Shown here: in pieces, positions 27,537 through 34,681 of the stretch
How the letters are laid out: each line of letters opens with the position of its first letter
How positions within the stretch are numbered: the first letter of the stretch is position 1
NCBI GenBank assembly: GCA_035945995.1
Contig: DASYZR010000074.1
Location: 1-37,167, forward strand
Direction: 5' to 3'
DNA from: a bacterium
GTDB lineage: Bacteria > Sysuimicrobiota > Sysuimicrobiia > Sysuimicrobiales > Segetimicrobiaceae
DNA: 37,167 nucleotides
Made by a program: the position numbers and the translations under genes
The notes under the pieces: generated by a model
Database searches by the model: none
Seen by the model: the letters and a program-made list of their open reading frames with translations, nothing else
Told to the model about the DNA's origin: nothing

Positions 27537-28871
27537 ATGCTCCCACTCAACCCCCGACCAGGTTTTGTCGTTTCATCCCCCGGTGCGTTCACGATGGTCC
27601 GCGGCTGGCTGCGAACCATCGTGGCCTTGAACGTTCGCGCCCCCGATGAGCTGGAGGAATACCGCCGTCCGCCGGCGTGGTTGCGCGTCGCACTCCTCAG
27701 CAGTCTTCTCGTTGACATCGGCGCGCTGGCGCGGCTTGCACCACGCGATATCCCCGCGGTCATTGCGCTGACGGTCGTCTACGCTCTGACCATGCTCGTG
27801 CCGCCTGTTGCGAGTCCGCTCGGGATGATACGCACGCCGCGTGTCGCGTTCTTGGTGACCCTCATGTTGCTGTGGTCCCCGTTGCACACGCTACTCGCGG
27901 TCGCCTTTGGCACGCTTCTTGCCGTGTTTGCATTCCGGCTCTACGAACCCTGGCGAGCGCTTATCAACACCGTCTTCTGGGCCTATCCGGCCGCCTTTGC
28001 ATCGCTGGTCGGCCACGCGGCACTGCGCGAGATTCCCGACCCGCTGGTTGGACTTACCGTGGCCGGCCTAGTCATACTGGTCGTGTATCTGGCCACAAAC
28101 TTCGCATTGCTCGCGCTGTACCGCCGTCTGCGTCACGGCGAAGCATTTTTCGCCTACTGGTGGAGTTGCCTGACGGAGAATCCGCTCGCGCAGGTGCTGG
28201 CGGCTCCGCTTCCGATTCTGTTGGGCGCCATCGCCCTCGGGGTCGGGCGAACGCCGTGGACGGCGCTGCTTCTCACGGCCCTGTCGGCGGTCACCATGCC
28301 GCCCGGCCGGGCCCAACTGGCCATCTTCCTCGCCTCGCAGCGGACCGTGCAGGACATCGTTCGTGCGTTGATGATCGCGCTGGAGCGGACGGCTCCGGGC
28401 GCGCAGGAGCACGCACGGCGGGTGAGCGATCTCGTCGGCGAGATGGGGCGCCGTCTGCGGGTTTCTCCCGACACGGTGGAGACGTGGCGCACCGCGGCGC
28501 TGCTGCACGACATCGGCCTCATCGACGCCGCCAGGCGGGCGGACTCGCCGGAAGGTCACGCGGTCGCCGGGGCGCGGATTCTCGCGTCGTATCCGGACAC
28601 GATCGTCGCCGACATGGTGCGGGAACACCACACCCCGTGGTCGGAACTGTCGCCGCGGCTGCGCGGTCCGGCGGCCCTCGGGGCGCGGGTGCTCGCCGCG
28701 GCCGAATATTACGATGAACTGCGGTACGGCACGCCGGAGAGGCCCGGTCTCATCACCCACGCGGCCACCGCGGAAGCCCTTCGTCCGCTGTTTGGCACAC
28801 AGTTGGACCCTCGGGTCGCTGCGGTACTTCTCGATGCGGCCCGGTCGCTCGACCCCAAAGCGGTTTCATGA
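27537..28871 (+). CDS. Membrane protein with C-terminal HD-GYP-like domain
   Basis: About 444 residues from ATG 27537 (TTG 27531 and ATG 27594 are alternatives; none has a strong ribosome site). Six or seven hydrophobic helices occupy about 45-265. The C-terminal domain is HD-type: LLHDIGLID (His324-Asp325), GHAVAGARIL and REHHTPW keep the metal-ligand pattern. The GYP loop is absent, though, with WSELSPRLRGPA in its place. It is therefore a divergent HD-GYP relative that may or may not hydrolyse cyclic-di-GMP. Its stop overlaps the next start as ATGA, so it is co-translated with the HD-GYP-MFS fusion and the two may form one membrane complex. Confidence 0.88.
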   Translation: MLPLNPRPGFVVSSPGAFTMVRGWLRTIVALNVRAPDELEEYRRPPAWLRVALLSSLLVDIGALARLAPRDIPAVIALTVVYALTMLVPPVASPLGMIRTPRVAFLVTLMLLWSPLHTLLAVAFGTLLAVFAFRLYEPWRALINTVFWAYPAAFASLVGHAALREIPDPLVGLTVAGLVILVVYLATNFALLALYRRLRHGEAFFAYWWSCLTENPLAQVLAAPLPILLGAIALGVGRTPWTALLLTALSAVTMPPGRAQLAIFLASQRTVQDIVRALMIALERTAPGAQEHARRVSDLVGEMGRRLRVSPDTVETWRTAALLHDIGLIDAARRADSPEGHAVAGARILASYPDTIVADMVREHHTPWSELSPRLRGPAALGARVLAAAEYYDELRYGTPERPGLITHAATAEALRPLFGTQLDPRVAAVLLDAARSLDPKAVS

Positions 28872-31420
28872 CGCGAACGCGGCGGATCGCCGTCCTGAAC
28901 GGGCTGCTGTTCTTGCTCCCGGCCGTGGTCTGGGCCCGGTGGGGCCTCGGCACGCACGTGCGGCTGCCCGATCTGCTGCTGCTGGCATCGACCGCGGCGA
29001 CGGTGGCGTGGCTCGCGGCCTACCCGTTGCGGATTTCGCCGAGCGATGATTTCCCGCTGCTGGTGGTTCCCGTGCTGGTCGCGCTCGGCCTCGGCCGGCC
29101 GCAGCTCGCGCTGGCCGGCGGTCTCTTCGGTCTTGCGGCCGCGACGGTCGGGGAGCCGGAGCGGTGGGGCGGCGTCCGCGCGATGGAAGAGGGCACGGCG
29201 CTCGCGGGCGGCGTGCTGGCGGTGATGCTGATCCGGTTGCCGCAGTTCCCCGATGCGCCGTACCGCCTCGGCACGCTCGTCCCCATAGTCATCGCGGCGA
29301 TCGTTTACGCGGCCGTTCGGCCACCGCTCGTCGCCGTTCGAATTGCCCGGACCGAACGGATGGCGTGGAGACGCGCGCTCATCGTCGTCGGCAACGGGTG
29401 GGGGACCTCGTTGGTCAGCTCCGTGGCGCTGGTCCTCGCGACCGTCGCGATCGAGCGCCTCTGGCTGCCGCACGCAAGCCGGGTCGCCTTGAGCGCCCTG
29501 CCGCTGTTGGCCGGCGGCGTGGTGCTCCACGTGTTTCATCCGCGTTCGATGAGCGGCCGGGAGGAGCGTCGTGTGCTGGCCACCACGGCGGTGCTCGCGG
29601 ACGCCATGGACGTGAAGGATACGCGCACCGGGCTGCATTCGCAGGACGTCGCGCAGCTCTCCAAACAGATTGCCCGGGCCGCCGGAGTGAGCGAGCGGTT
29701 GGCGCACGACGCGTTCCTGACCGGTCTGCTGCACGACATCGGCAAGGTCGCCGTTCCGGACGCCATTCTACAGAAGCCGGGCAAGCTCGACCCCGATGAG
29801 TGGCGCGTGATGGAGCACCACGTCCTCGACAGCGCCGCCATGGTCGAGTCGATTGCCGGCCTTTCGCGCATCGTCCCGCTCGTCCGCGCGAGCCACGAGC
29901 ACTACGACGGATCCGGCTACCCCGACGGCCTCGCCGGCCGGGCGATCCCGCTGGCCGCACGGATCGTGGCGATCGCGGATGCCTACCACGCCTTGACGAA
30001 CGACCGCGTCTACCGGCCGCGGGCAAGTCGCGAGACGGCGCTCGCGGAGCTCGAGCGGTGCAGCGGCACGCAGTTCGATCCGGCGCTCGTCCGGGCCCTG
30101 CGCCGGGTGGTCGGCGCGGGCGCTCGACCCCGCGCCCTCCCCGCGGCGCGTCCGGCGCCGGCCTGGCTCAGCGTGCTTCGCCGCCCGGCCTTCGCCCTGC
30201 TGTGGGGCGGCGAACTGGTCTCCTTTTTGGGCGACGAGGTCTTCTTCATCGCGATCACTCTCTGGGTGTACGCGCTCACCGGGTCGGCGACAACGCTGGC
30301 GGCCGCGCTGGGCGCGGGATACGTCGCGCAGGCGGTCTTCAGTTTTCTCGCCGGAACCATCGCCGATCGGGTGGACCGCCGCGTCATCGTCGCGTTTTCG
30401 GACGTCGGCCGGGCGCTGGTCGTGGCCGCCCTCCCGTTTGTGCTTCCGTGGTCGCTGCCCGCGGGGCTGATCCTGCTCGGAATTCTGAACGTCGGCTCCG
30501 TGTTCTTCCGCGCGGCCGTCAACGCGCTGCTGCCGTCGATCGCGACGGCGGAAGAGCTGCAGGCGGTGAACGCGCTGTTCCAGACGACGGAGCGGGTCGC
30601 GGAGATTCTCGGCGGGGTCCTCGGAGCGGCGGCGGTGCTGGCGCTGGGCTACGCGGGTGTCATGTTCGCCGACGCCGGGTCGTTCCTGGTGAGCGCCGCG
30701 TGCGTCCTCCTCATGCCGCTCGCGTGGGGCGCGGGCCTCGGTACCAGGCGGCGCGTCTCGATCACCGCCGATCTCACGACGGGGCTCCGGTACTTATGGA
30801 GGACGCCGTTCCAGCGATACTTTGCCCTGTTGATCGTGCCGGGCTACCTCACCCTCGCATTCGAAGCGCTTCGCGCGCCGATGATCGTGCACACCGCCCA
30901 CCTCTCGCCAACGGCCTACGGGGTCGTGAACAGCACGCTCGGCGCGGGCAAACTGGCGACCGCGCTCGTCCTGGCCGGGCTGACGAGGCGGTGGGCGACG
31001 CCGGGTCTGGCGGTCGTCGCCTATTTGATCGCCGGTCTCGGCGTGGCGGTGTTCGCGTCCGCGCCGTGGTATCTCGGGTTGGTGGCGGGAACGTTTATCT
31101 TTGCGGTCGGCAACATGCTCTCGTACATCGTCAACGCCACGCTCGTCATGCAGACGACCCCGCAGGAGCTGCTCGGCCGCGTCCTCGGCAACCGTCAGGT
31201 GCTCGTCCAGGGCACGCGTCTCATCGGCGCGCTCGCGCTGGGGCGTCTTGCCGACACCGCGTCGCCGCCGGTAGCGTTATGGGCTATGGCCGGCGTCTCG
31301 ATGGGCGGCGTGTTGATGCTTTGGCTCTTCACCGGCCGCTCGGTGGCCGCGTCGACGCCGCCCCCCGCGTCCGCCGCCGGCGGAGCGGCCCGCTCCGTCG
31401 CGGAACTCGAGCCGTCGTAG
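28868..31420 (+). CDS. Membrane sensor - HD-GYP - MFS transporter fusion, 850 aa
   Basis: Three modules lie in one uninterrupted frame. Residues 1-225 hold about seven hydrophobic helices. Residues 235-415 are an HD-GYP domain: His257, LLHDIGKVAVPD with His289-Asp290, MEHHVLDSA, ASHEHYDGSGYPDGL (one His of the usual HHE pair is Ser342; GYP is intact) and IADAYHALTNDR. After a Pro/Ala linker, residues 435-830 form a full MFS permease of the enterobactin-exporter-like MFS_3 type (LLWGGELVSFLGDEVFF, AGTIADRVDRRVIV, ALLPSIATAEELQAVNALFQT). HD-GYP proteins normally hydrolyse cyclic-di-GMP; fusing one to a transporter is unusual and suggests signal-coupled efflux. ATG 28868 overlaps the preceding gene's stop. 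Confidence 0.94.
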   Translation: MTRTRRIAVLNGLLFLLPAVVWARWGLGTHVRLPDLLLLASTAATVAWLAAYPLRISPSDDFPLLVVPVLVALGLGRPQLALAGGLFGLAAATVGEPERWGGVRAMEEGTALAGGVLAVMLIRLPQFPDAPYRLGTLVPIVIAAIVYAAVRPPLVAVRIARTERMAWRRALIVVGNGWGTSLVSSVALVLATVAIERLWLPHASRVALSALPLLAGGVVLHVFHPRSMSGREERRVLATTAVLADAMDVKDTRTGLHSQDVAQLSKQIARAAGVSERLAHDAFLTGLLHDIGKVAVPDAILQKPGKLDPDEWRVMEHHVLDSAAMVESIAGLSRIVPLVRASHEHYDGSGYPDGLAGRAIPLAARIVAIADAYHALTNDRVYRPRASRETALAELERCSGTQFDPALVRALRRVVGAGARPRALPAARPAPAWLSVLRRPAFALLWGGELVSFLGDEVFFIAITLWVYALTGSATTLAAALGAGYVAQAVFSFLAGTIADRVDRRVIVAFSDVGRALVVAALPFVLPWSLPAGLILLGILNVGSVFFRAAVNALLPSIATAEELQAVNALFQTTERVAEILGGVLGAAAVLALGYAGVMFADAGSFLVSAACVLLMPLAWGAGLGTRRRVSITADLTTGLRYLWRTPFQRYFALLIVPGYLTLAFEALRAPMIVHTAHLSPTAYGVVNSTLGAGKLATALVLAGLTRRWATPGLAVVAYLIAGLGVAVFASAPWYLGLVAGTFIFAVGNMLSYIVNATLVMQTTPQELLGRVLGNRQVLVQGTRLIGALALGRLADTASPPVALWAMAGVSMGGVLMLWLFTGRSVAASTPPPASAAGGAARSVAELEPS

Positions 31421-32802
31421 CTCCCGGACCAGACGCCGCGCCGGGCGTCCGCCGCCGCGTAGAGGTCCGCGCGGCTGGTTTGCGGATGCGTATCGACCAC
31501 CGTCACCGAGCGGAGCCGAAACCCGGCCGCGTGCGCGGCCCCGGCCGCGTCGGCGAGGCGCGCCGGCGAGGTCGCGGCCAGCACGAGACGCTCCACCCCC
31601 GCCTCGTGCAGCGCGCCGAAGGGCACGGGGTCGCCCGTCACGTGGGCGAGGGCCCGCCGGGTCGGGCCGTACGACCGGATGACCGCCGAAAGCGTCTGCG
31701 ACGCGCGATCGACGAAGATCGCGTTTGACGCCTCGTTCCACGCCGCGTTCTGCCGGGCGACGGCGAGGTGCTCCCCGGCCGTCCGTCCGACGGCGCGCTT
31801 CGCCCGGGCGGCGGCGGGCAGCGTGTAGGCTCCGATCCCCGCATCCATCTCGAGCAGGGTGGCGGTGCCGTCCAGTTCCAAGGCGTCGAGCGCGCAAGTG
31901 ACGGCCGCGGACGCCGCGCGGCCGGTCACCGGAAACGGCGCGAACACCGGGACGTGGTACCAGCGGCCGAGGAGCGCTTCCACCACACCCGCCTGTCCCC
32001 AGCGCAGTTCCGGCTCGGCCGGACGGGCCCGCTTGACCGTGACTTCCACCAGGCCCGTAAGATGCCGGCGCAGCGCGTCCAGGATCGCGTCGCGCAGCGG
32101 CGGTGCGAGGGGCGCGTCGACCACCAGGCCGACCGCCGCTTCCTGCGACGCTTCGCCGACCCGAAGACGAATCTGCCGGCAGACCCGTTCGCCCCCGCCC
32201 GCCGCGTCAAGCGCCGGGGCGAGAATCCTCCACGCCCGCTGCACCTCGGCAAACGTCCTCTGAAGAACGGGGGACTGCACCGGGCACGCGTCGATGGCGA
32301 CGTGCGCCGGTCCGGCGGCGGCGTGCAACCCCAACGCCGGCCCGCGGCCGTCCGCCGCCGGGACGTACGTGCCGGCGGTCCGGTATCCCCATCCGTCCGC
32401 GGCGGGAACGACATCGACCGGAACCGCATCCAGCCCGGACGCGGCGAGCGCACGTTCCACCAAGGCACCTTTGGCTGCGTTCTGCGCGACGCCGTCGAGG
32501 CGCTGCCACTGGCATCCGCCGCACCGCTCGAAGTGCGGGCACGGCGGCGGTACGCGTCGGGACGAAGGCTGGACGAGCGTCACGAGGCGTCCGCGAATGG
32601 CCCGCTCGCGACGCTCGCGCAGCTCGACGTCGGCAAGATCGCCCGGGACCGCGTCCGCGACCGCGATGGTCCACGGTCCGAGGTGCGCGAGCGCCTTTCG
32701 GTCCGCCGACATGCCGTCAAACATGACGCGGACCCGGGTGCCGAAGACCTGCGCGGAGGCGTTGCGCGACGTCACGGTTTCTCGGCTCTCCTCCCAAGAC
32801 AT
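31195..32802 (-). CDS. TrmA/RumA-family RNA methyltransferase-like protein, catalytic Cys absent
   Basis: About 535 residues from ATG 32802 (GTG 32775 possible). A TRAM-like N-terminal beta domain spans 20-78. The [4Fe-4S] cysteines are Cys88, Cys94, Cys97 (CPHFERCGGCQWQ) and Cys173. The C-terminal Rossmann fold has a worn SAM motif (LLEMDAGIGAYTLPA). At the site where RumA/TrmA enzymes carry their nucleophile (SCNPAT), this protein reads ATSPAR, with Thr411 in place of Cys, and the DPPR motif is not recognisable. The trailing VVDTHPQT is conserved. It may bind RNA without methylating uracil. Its last 75 residues run antisense to the MFS gene end, which is odd. The start region faces the small-peptide gene. 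Confidence 0.87.
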   Translation of the reverse strand: MSWEESRETVTSRNASAQVFGTRVRVMFDGMSADRKALAHLGPWTIAVADAVPGDLADVELRERRERAIRGRLVTLVQPSSRRVPPPCPHFERCGGCQWQRLDGVAQNAAKGALVERALAASGLDAVPVDVVPAADGWGYRTAGTYVPAADGRGPALGLHAAAGPAHVAIDACPVQSPVLQRTFAEVQRAWRILAPALDAAGGGERVCRQIRLRVGEASQEAAVGLVVDAPLAPPLRDAILDALRRHLTGLVEVTVKRARPAEPELRWGQAGVVEALLGRWYHVPVFAPFPVTGRAASAAVTCALDALELDGTATLLEMDAGIGAYTLPAAARAKRAVGRTAGEHLAVARQNAAWNEASNAIFVDRASQTLSAVIRSYGPTRRALAHVTGDPVPFGALHEAGVERLVLAATSPARLADAAGAAHAAGFRLRSVTVVDTHPQTSRADLYAAADARRGVWSGSYDGSSSATERAAPPAADAGGGVDAATERPVKSQSINTPPIETPAIAHNATGGDAVSARRPSASAPMRRVPWTST

Positions 32803-32927
32803 CGCATCCCGGCGTCGTGCGGGCGCGTGACCGGTTTCCACGTTTCTTACCCGGCCGGGCTCATTCTCCTGGTCGTCAATCGTACGTTTGTTTGGTAGGT
32901 ATTCTGAAAAGCGTGGCTCAACCTTCG

Positions 32928-32950: not shown

Positions 32951-33038
32951 GCCGACAGGAGGTCCACTCTTTCACGGCAGGAGTCCGTAACTATTCAGAC
33001 GTGGCCGTCCGGCTAAAAACTCCATGGAGGTGATCGGG

Positions 33039-33173
33039 ATGCGGAAGATGTTTGCGATCGTGGTGACCATGGTATTGCTCGTGCTTGGTGGAATCGCGGG
33101 AAGCAGCCTGCACGCCGGCCATTCGCAGGCGCATGTCCTGGCGAGCGACGGCGGAAGCGGAGCGGGCGGCTAG
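33039..33173 (+). CDS. 44-aa secreted/membrane peptide, candidate signalling propeptide
   Basis: ATG 33039 is preceded by GGAGGTGAT, a near-perfect Shine-Dalgarno with ideal spacing, which strongly supports translation of this short frame. The product has a basic start (MRK), a hydrophobic core (MFAIVVTMVLLVLGGIAG) and a polar tail ending VLASDGGSGAGG. VLA before SDGG would suit signal peptidase, releasing a nine-residue Gly/Ser peptide; cleavage after HA at about 26 is another option. It has its own downstream hairpin and lies 131 bases upstream of an HTH-TPR regulator on the same strand. That order resembles peptide-receptor modules of the RRNPP type. Function is inferred from context only; a simple small membrane protein is the alternative. 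Confidence 0.72.
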   Translation: MRKMFAIVVTMVLLVLGGIAGSSLHAGHSQAHVLASDGGSGAGG

Positions 33174-33193
33174 CACCACACGAGCCTGCGCTG

Positions 33194-33235
33194 CGCCGGG
33201 TAGGTTGCGTCTGGCCGGACGGCCGCCTACCGGCG
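33194..33235 (+). terminator. Stem-loop between the peptide gene and the HTH-TPR gene
   Basis: CGCCGGGTAGG (33194-33204) pairs with CCTACCGGCG (33226-33235) over ten base pairs with one bulged G, enclosing a smaller inner stem. It starts 20 bases after the peptide stop. It could terminate the peptide transcript or attenuate read-through into the regulator. No T tract is present. Confidence 0.52.
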
Positions 33236-33304
33236 TGCGGCAGGAATCGCCGCGTTTCCCCGCTGAATAGTCAAGGACTCATTGACGTTCGGGGACGCGC
33301 GGCA

Positions 33305-34681
33305 ATGGCACAATTGACCTTCGGGCAACTACTGAAACAGGCCCGCCTCGCGCTCGGACTCAGTCAGGCCGAGGCGGCGGCCCCCATGCTGACCAAGGCG
33401 TTCATCAGCCTGCTCGAGCACGACGGCGCGCGCCCCTCCTTGTCCACGATCCGGCATCTCTCCCGGCGGCTGCGCCGCCCGCTCGAGTACTTCCTCGCCG
33501 GACTCGATGCGACGACCGTCGCGCGCGCGTTGCGCGCCGCCGGGGATCAGGCGCGGGCCGCCGTGGATCAGCGGCGATACGCCGCCGCGCACGCCGCGTT
33601 CGAGGAACTCGGCCGTCTTGGGTCCGTGTGCGGCGTGCCGCAGGCCGCGGCGGCCGCGACGCTCGGCATGGGGGAGGCGCTGCTCGGCCTTCGCCGGCTG
33701 CCCGAGGCGGAGCGGCTGCTCCGCGACGCGCTGGACGGGGCCCGCGATCCGCTGACCGAGTGCCGCGGGCTGCGCGGGCTCGGATATGCGGCGCACCTGC
33801 GGGGGCGGCTGCACGAGGCCGTGGCGCGGTATCGCGCCGCCCTCGCGCTGATCCCAGCGATCTCCAGCCCTATGCCCGCGCTGCACGGCGAGCTGCTGGC
33901 CTACCTCAGCACCATGCTCTTCCGGCTGGGAAATTTTGAAGAGTCGCTCGCCGCGGCGACCGAGGCCCTGGATTTGCTCGAGGCGAGCGCGCCGGCCCGG
34001 GTCGCCGAGGTACGCATGAATCTCGGGTTCATTCACTACAGCCTCGGTGCGTACGAGTCGGCCGCGGAGGAATACCGGCTCGCGCTGCGGATCGCCGAGC
34101 AGTATGAAGACCTCGAGACCGTCTTCCGGGTCCGCAAGAACTGGGCGATGGTCCTGATCGAAGCCGGCCGGCCGGAGGCGGCGTTGGAACACCTGCGGTT
34201 GAGCGTGACGATGGCCCGCCGGCTGTCGGACGTCCGGGGCGAATGCCTCGCCTTGACCGAGCTGGCCCGCTGCTACCTCGCCCTCGGGGCGCTTGCCGAT
34301 GCCCGGGCGAGCGCGGAGGAGGCCGTGGCCCGCAGTCACGCCGCGGGCGTCACGGACGAGGTGGCGCGCGCGGGCATCGTGCTCGGGGCGGTGTCGGTGG
34401 CCCAGGGTCAACCGCAGCGCGCGCTCCGCTATCTCACCGCCGCCTACCGCCACTCGACCGGGGCCGGCATGACGGTGGAAGTCATTATCGCCGGCTACCT
34501 GCTCGCCCGCGTCACGTCGCGCTGGGGCCGGGCGGCCGACGCGGTGCGGCTCCACAACGAAGTGTTCGCCGCCCTCCGGCGGCTGTCGCCCGAGGAAGTG
34601 TACGGCGTCATGCAGGTGGCGAAGACATTCGACGGTGCGATCGACCACGCCGTCGCGCCGGCGCCGGTCTCAACGCCGTAG
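33305..34681 (+). CDS. Xre-type HTH regulator with TPR array
   Basis: A 458-residue regulator. Residues 8-65 are an Xre HTH (LLKQARLALGLSQAEAAAPM, FISLLEHDGARPSLSTIRHLS). From about 75 to the end come roughly nine TPR-like helical pairs with typical residues (LGMGEALLGLRRLPEAERLL, LGYAAHLRGRLHEAVARY, LGFIHYSLGAYESAAEEY, LARCYLALGALADARASA). HTH-TPR proteins of the RRNPP class bind short exported peptides in the TPR groove, which changes their DNA binding. The 44-residue secreted-type peptide encoded just upstream makes that model attractive here. ATG 33305 has only a weak GGGGA site. An 18-bp inverted-repeat copy lies 25 bases upstream, suggesting autoregulation. Confidence 0.94.
   Translation: MAQLTFGQLLKQARLALGLSQAEAAAPMLTKAFISLLEHDGARPSLSTIRHLSRRLRRPLEYFLAGLDATTVARALRAAGDQARAAVDQRRYAAAHAAFEELGRLGSVCGVPQAAAAATLGMGEALLGLRRLPEAERLLRDALDGARDPLTECRGLRGLGYAAHLRGRLHEAVARYRAALALIPAISSPMPALHGELLAYLSTMLFRLGNFEESLAAATEALDLLEASAPARVAEVRMNLGFIHYSLGAYESAAEEYRLALRIAEQYEDLETVFRVRKNWAMVLIEAGRPEAALEHLRLSVTMARRLSDVRGECLALTELARCYLALGALADARASAEEAVARSHAAGVTDEVARAGIVLGAVSVAQGQPQRALRYLTAAYRHSTGAGMTVEVIIAGYLLARVTSRWGRAADAVRLHNEVFAALRRLSPEEVYGVMQVAKTFDGAIDHAVAPAPVSTP

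Follow-up and report, generated by a model that had tools for sequence, protein, structure and literature searches.

RRNPP quorum-sensing systems pair a small exported propeptide with a TPR-containing receptor, and the papers we found place the family in Bacillota and their phages and plasmids. The largest published survey scanned only Firmicutes complete genomes and viruses, and defines the systems by five points: a small propeptide (10-100 aa), its secretion by Sec, a receptor of about 250-500 aa, TPRs within that receptor, and direct adjacency of the two genes (PMC10075063). Here we analyzed a 37,167-nucleotide stretch of DNA (the window) from a 4.1-Mb genome bin of Candidatus Segetimicrobium genomatis, phylum Candidatus Sysuimicrobiota (formerly CSP1-3; kingdom Bacillati), an uncultured lineage outside Bacillota (PMC11604079). 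A tiny gene for a predicted secreted, glycine- and aspartate-rich peptide sits just before a gene for a predicted DNA-binding receptor, and the same pairing, with a different peptide for each receptor type, recurs across the phylum, which suggests that these bacteria communicate by peptides in a way so far described, in the open-access literature we searched, only in Bacillota.

A small conserved gene precedes an HTH-TPR regulator

The locus comprises the following features:

33001-33013 (+), GTGGCCGTCCGGC, conserved in three congeners, upstream arm of an inverted repeat flanking the peptide gene
33026-33035 (+), Shine-Dalgarno sequence GGAGGTGATC of the peptide gene
33039-33173 (+), precursor gene, 44 aa (MRKMFAIVVTMVLLVLGGIAGSSLHAGHSQAHVLASDGGSGAGG), with a Sec-like N-terminus (MRKMFAIVVTMVLLVLGGIAGSSLHA) and a polar tail
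33144-33170 (+), predicted mature signal peptide SDGGSGAGG, following VLA
33214-33226 (+), GCCGGACGGCCGC, downstream arm of the inverted repeat, inside a GGTAGGT...CCTACC hairpin between the two genes; possible operator or RNA switch
33305-34681 (+), receptor-regulator, 458 aa, with an Xre-type HTH (about residues 1-65) and nine predicted TPR helix pairs (69-449)

The precursor ORF begins at an ATG at 33039, ends with a stop codon at 33171-33173, and is separated by 131 nt from the receptor ATG at 33305, whose stop codon lies at 34679-34681. Its 10-nt Shine-Dalgarno is perfect and occurs once in the window, with 0.13 copies expected by chance. An in-frame ATG at 33024 would give a 49-aa product, but it overlaps the Shine-Dalgarno, and the two orthologues align as ORFs only from the ATG at 33039. 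The Sec-like signal was judged by a hydrophobicity and charge rule. Pfam searches of the receptor revealed HTH_3 at residues 10-63 and TPR families over the rest, including TPR_12 (1.4e-21).

We next asked whether the small ORF is a gene. Orthologues of 45 codons are present in both congeners at the same place, upstream of the orthologous receptor (68 and 60% identity), with the predicted tails ADGENGGGG and ADGDNGSGG. The surrounding gene order is also the same: an HD/MFS protein, an RlmD-like methyltransferase, peptide, receptor, a DUF305 protein and fumarase subunits. The first of these is a single 850-aa ORF (28868-31420, +) that joins an HD-type domain (HD_5, 3.5e-37) to an MFS transporter domain (MFS_1) and is conserved in both congeners at 73-74% identity, whereas the RlmD-like rRNA methyltransferase (31195-32802, -) scores below the curated cut-off (118.7 against 183.55 bits), lacks a Pfam match and may be a divergent enzyme. 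Across the small ORF the DNA alignment has one 3-nt indel, while the flanks have many. Nei-Gojobori omega for the three pairs is 0.36, 0.47 and 0.31, close to the receptor's 0.26, 0.37 and 0.36; although these values are rough, with 132-135 nt per pair, third codon positions differ most in every pair (27, 24 and 21 against at most 19 elsewhere). The ORF therefore evolves under constraint in the window's genus. An earlier note made from the sequence alone had proposed that the two genes have the layout of RRNPP pairs, with the functional link as inference, and that lack of conservation or a near-neutral ratio in the small frame would count against it; that test came out the other way, and the interpretation is supported.

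An inverted repeat of 11-15 nt flanks the precursor gene in the three congeners, with its arms at 33001-33013 and 33214-33226 pairing with one mismatch, and may represent an operator pair or an RNA switch. GGTAGGT also occurs upstream of the peptide gene (32892-32898) and, as GGTAGGT...CCTACC, between the genes (33199-33232), largely conserved in the three congeners. When we tested the inverted repeat as a genome-wide operator, 108 near-matches were obtained against 167 for the reversed control pattern, so that no regulon can be read from it. Flanking inverted repeats are not general, being clear only in the window's clade and some others.

The pairing recurs across Sysuimicrobiota

Receptor relatives at E <= 1e-25 occur in 36 of 43 genomes of the phylum. 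We retrieved 90 HTH-bearing homologues, 89 of them with enough upstream sequence, and applied one fixed rule to 700 nt on each side: a Shine-Dalgarno of 5 or more, a basic residue near the start, a 12-residue hydrophobic window of at least 2.3, and a length of 30-145 aa. Such an ORF was found on the sense strand upstream of 38 of 89 receptors, compared to 0 of 89 antisense upstream, 0 of 71 sense downstream, 2 of 71 antisense downstream, and 1 of 1780 shuffled sequences. Because the thresholds were set after seeing the first examples, the controls, rather than the raw count, carry the argument. One hit, at receptor locus L013 (L numbers denote receptor loci), is a 145-aa cupredoxin-like secreted protein rather than a peptide; with the remaining 37, the Fisher p is about 1e-13. 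In sister receptors of the window's clade (L011, 3057-3494, -; also L012, L013 and L014), a secreted cupredoxin-like protein occupies the place of the peptide gene, and that of L011 is Pfam Cupredoxin_1. Five more precursors with a weaker Shine-Dalgarno were added by inspection (L009, L010, L020, L025, L066), giving 42. These are 38-101 aa long in all but one case, L118 being 137 aa, indicating that the limit of under 60 codons suggested in the earlier note is too narrow.

About half of the receptors have no precursor. Two receptor groups, comprising 18 genes, have none found (Fisher p about 1e-7, ignoring shared descent), and no convincing candidate emerged next to three homologues in the window's own genome (contigs C147, C100 and C125), even with relaxed start, Shine-Dalgarno and length rules; these receptors may be orphans. 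Outside the phylum, only two of about 343 sampled genomes gave matches at E <= 1e-45, one of them by TPRs alone, and the one good HTH-TPR match (genome G368) has no convincing precursor. In a contig scan with an alignment of nine closely related receptors, used because an alignment of 26 was too diverse, HTH genes of other phyla were mostly about 180 aa, and only one of 35 loci gave a hit, a 111-aa membrane protein.

Precursor tails are often repeated and track receptor clade

The strongest evidence lies inside the precursors. Eighteen of 42 contain an exact repeat of at least five residues, usually the last 7-10 residues, such that the predicted mature peptide is present 2-5 times. IAGDSLPGGS occurs twice in L034, where 10 of 30 nt differ but no amino acid does; AGDSLPGGS occurs twice in L056 (9 of 27 nt), AGDVGPGQNGP is repeated in L051 (8 of 33 nt), and GDDPPDSD in L059. 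Units of 13-19 residues are found in L022, L028, L029, L048, L118 and L119, where the most recent copies are nearly identical in DNA as well, and L118 holds five GDDNGxGAVYGLPPLVPQ units. Amino-acid identity kept through synonymous change is strong evidence for translation and for selection on the unit itself. Although the window's own precursor has a single tail, so that the repeat evidence comes from relatives, the boundaries of these units inform the inferred cleavage site: 33 of 46 units are preceded by alanine, as a signal-peptidase-like or Ala-directed cut would need, and the first unit often follows a signal-peptidase-like motif (PALA, AVSA, TAIA). In the window, the corresponding cut gives SDGGSGAGG. 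Overall, the last nine residues of the precursors are 33% Gly and 10% Asp.

In an 81-receptor tree, tails group by receptor clade: GDxGPG/GDSLPGGS, GHGGGELL/GHGDGELL, GRGDxDSFG, GDD..., and ADGxNGxGG for the window's genus. Importantly, tail type follows the receptor clade and not the genome. Five genomes (G018, G030, G038, G021 and G033) each carry two or three different pairs that sit in the matching clades, and G030, G038 and G018 each hold a GHGGGELL pair and a GDxGPGQNG pair with two different receptors. A patatin-like phospholipase gene, a candidate output gene, starts 27-38 nt after the receptor of the GHGDGELL clade (L022, 2821-3921; L029, 254-1354, -; also L028 and L023; PF01734 in L022 and L029), and a quinone-oxidoreductase-like ORF, named from the sequence alone, lies about 0.4-0.8 kb downstream of receptors of the GDxGPG clade (L027, L051, L053, L032, L126). 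In four genomes, a second, shorter HTH-TPR gene in the opposite orientation lies about 2.5-3 kb from the paired receptor (L157, L158, L159, L160).

Predicted receptor structure and proposed mechanism

An AF2 model of the receptor (pLDDT 93.9) shows an HTH followed by nine TPR pairs. Structural alignment (VIA-align) of the model matched RapI (4i1a; Z 29.4, 347 residues, 3.6 A) and NprR (5dbk; Z 28.4, 344 residues, 3.4 A, model residues 71-425), along with further Rap-Phr and NprR-NprX complexes. However, eukaryotic LGN, a TPR protein that is not a pheromone receptor, reaches Z 30.6 over fewer residues, and the fold alone therefore does not prove membership. PlcR and Rap were also recovered by profile search, among many unrelated TPR proteins. 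Residues conserved in paired but less so in orphan receptors (E319 and R322, in the A-helix of a TPR) are suggestive only, since their assignment to the groove rests on TPR consensus numbering.

Together, these results support, with high confidence, a peptide-signal and receptor pair that very probably works like RRNPP systems, although whether it belongs to that lineage by descent is open. By inference, the 44-aa precursor is exported by Sec and cut near its C-terminus, most likely after Ala-35, to release SDGGSGAGG; the peptide would accumulate outside, be taken back in by an oligopeptide ABC importer, and bind the concave TPR groove of the protein encoded just downstream, changing its DNA binding. 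An importer is plausible, as the genome has 47 SBP_bac_5 matches, and the inverted repeat flanking the precursor gene is a possible operator.

Discussion

We considered whether the small protein might instead be an effector (a small membrane protein, toxin-like peptide or secreted bacteriocin-like peptide) whose expression the HTH-TPR protein controls while sensing something else. A regulator next to a secreted small protein is a common layout, and orphan receptors without a peptide exist in the same genomes. Nonetheless, this reading is unlikely: the short Gly/Asp-rich tails have no cysteine, no modification or immunity gene was noticed beside the window's pair, the tails form tandem repeats of 7-10 aa units, peptide type tracks receptor clade, and the TPR groove is the known peptide-binding site of the structurally similar NprR and Rap. 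Less likely still is that the ORF is a leader peptide of an attenuator or riboswitch-like control of the receptor gene, for which only its translation would matter and the flanking inverted repeat (GTGGCCGTCCGGC / GCCGGACGGCC) would form alternative RNA hairpins. The 131-nt gap does contain a stable hairpin (z -2.5) and an upstream segment complementary to it, conserved in three species, but a leader peptide would need neither a Sec-like core, nor exact amino-acid repeats of its tail with synonymous divergence, nor tail types that follow the receptor clade, and the strong inverted repeat is present in only some loci. Finally, a chance or decaying frame, as might be suspected from only 44 codons and three members in the clade, is contradicted by the survey controls, the omega values and third-position excess, the perfect Shine-Dalgarno and the phylum-wide recurrence.

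More broadly, it appears more likely than not that Sysuimicrobiota as a whole runs its own diversified language of Gly/Asp-rich peptide pheromones, with receptor clades and peptide types evolving together, tandem-copy precursors, and orphan receptors that may listen to other systems' peptides. This would place RRNPP-type signalling outside Bacillota, either by very old common descent or by independent assembly. A literature search for RRNPP with Actinomycetota returned only the Firmicutes and virus survey, and the description of Sysuimicrobiota contains neither the word 'quorum' nor a peptide-signalling passage (PMC11604079), although an earlier report outside the open-access literature cannot be excluded. 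The 42 precursors provide a second radiation to compare, matched sets of peptides and receptors make the specificity code testable, the repeated tails give predicted mature peptides that can be synthesised directly, and the family offers a handle on behaviour in a phylum that has not been cultivated.

Of the five points that define RRNPP systems (PMC10075063), four hold for the window's pair, namely propeptide size, receptor length, TPRs and adjacency on the same strand, while the Sec tag is supported only by rule. Compared with NprR-NprX of Bacillus, the receptor resembles a protein of similar length that likely likewise combines an N-terminal HTH with about nine TPRs and has a small precursor encoded next door, whose secretion is inferred here; the precursor gene lies upstream of the receptor here but probably downstream in NprR-NprX, the peptides here are Gly/Asp-rich, the phylum is different, and no orthology beyond the HTH and TPR superfamilies is shown. 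Rap-Phr systems, including the tandem propeptides of Phr3T and Phr105 (PMC11343458), share a precursor (exported here by inference) with one or more pheromone copies and a TPR receptor whose fold the model matches, but Rap appears to carry a helical bundle instead of an HTH and to act by protein contact, whereas the receptor here has an HTH and precursors of the family hold up to five near-exact copies. PlcR-PapR likewise pairs an HTH-TPR regulator with an adjacent small precursor, exported here by inference, and PlcR is among the profile hits (E 2e-14), but PlcR is shorter (a 293-residue chain) and PapR peptides such as ADLPFEF (PMC6568020) are unlike SDGGSGAGG. The peptide-receptor families of Paenibacillus, in Bacillota, also comprise many parallel pairs per lineage (PMC7425212).
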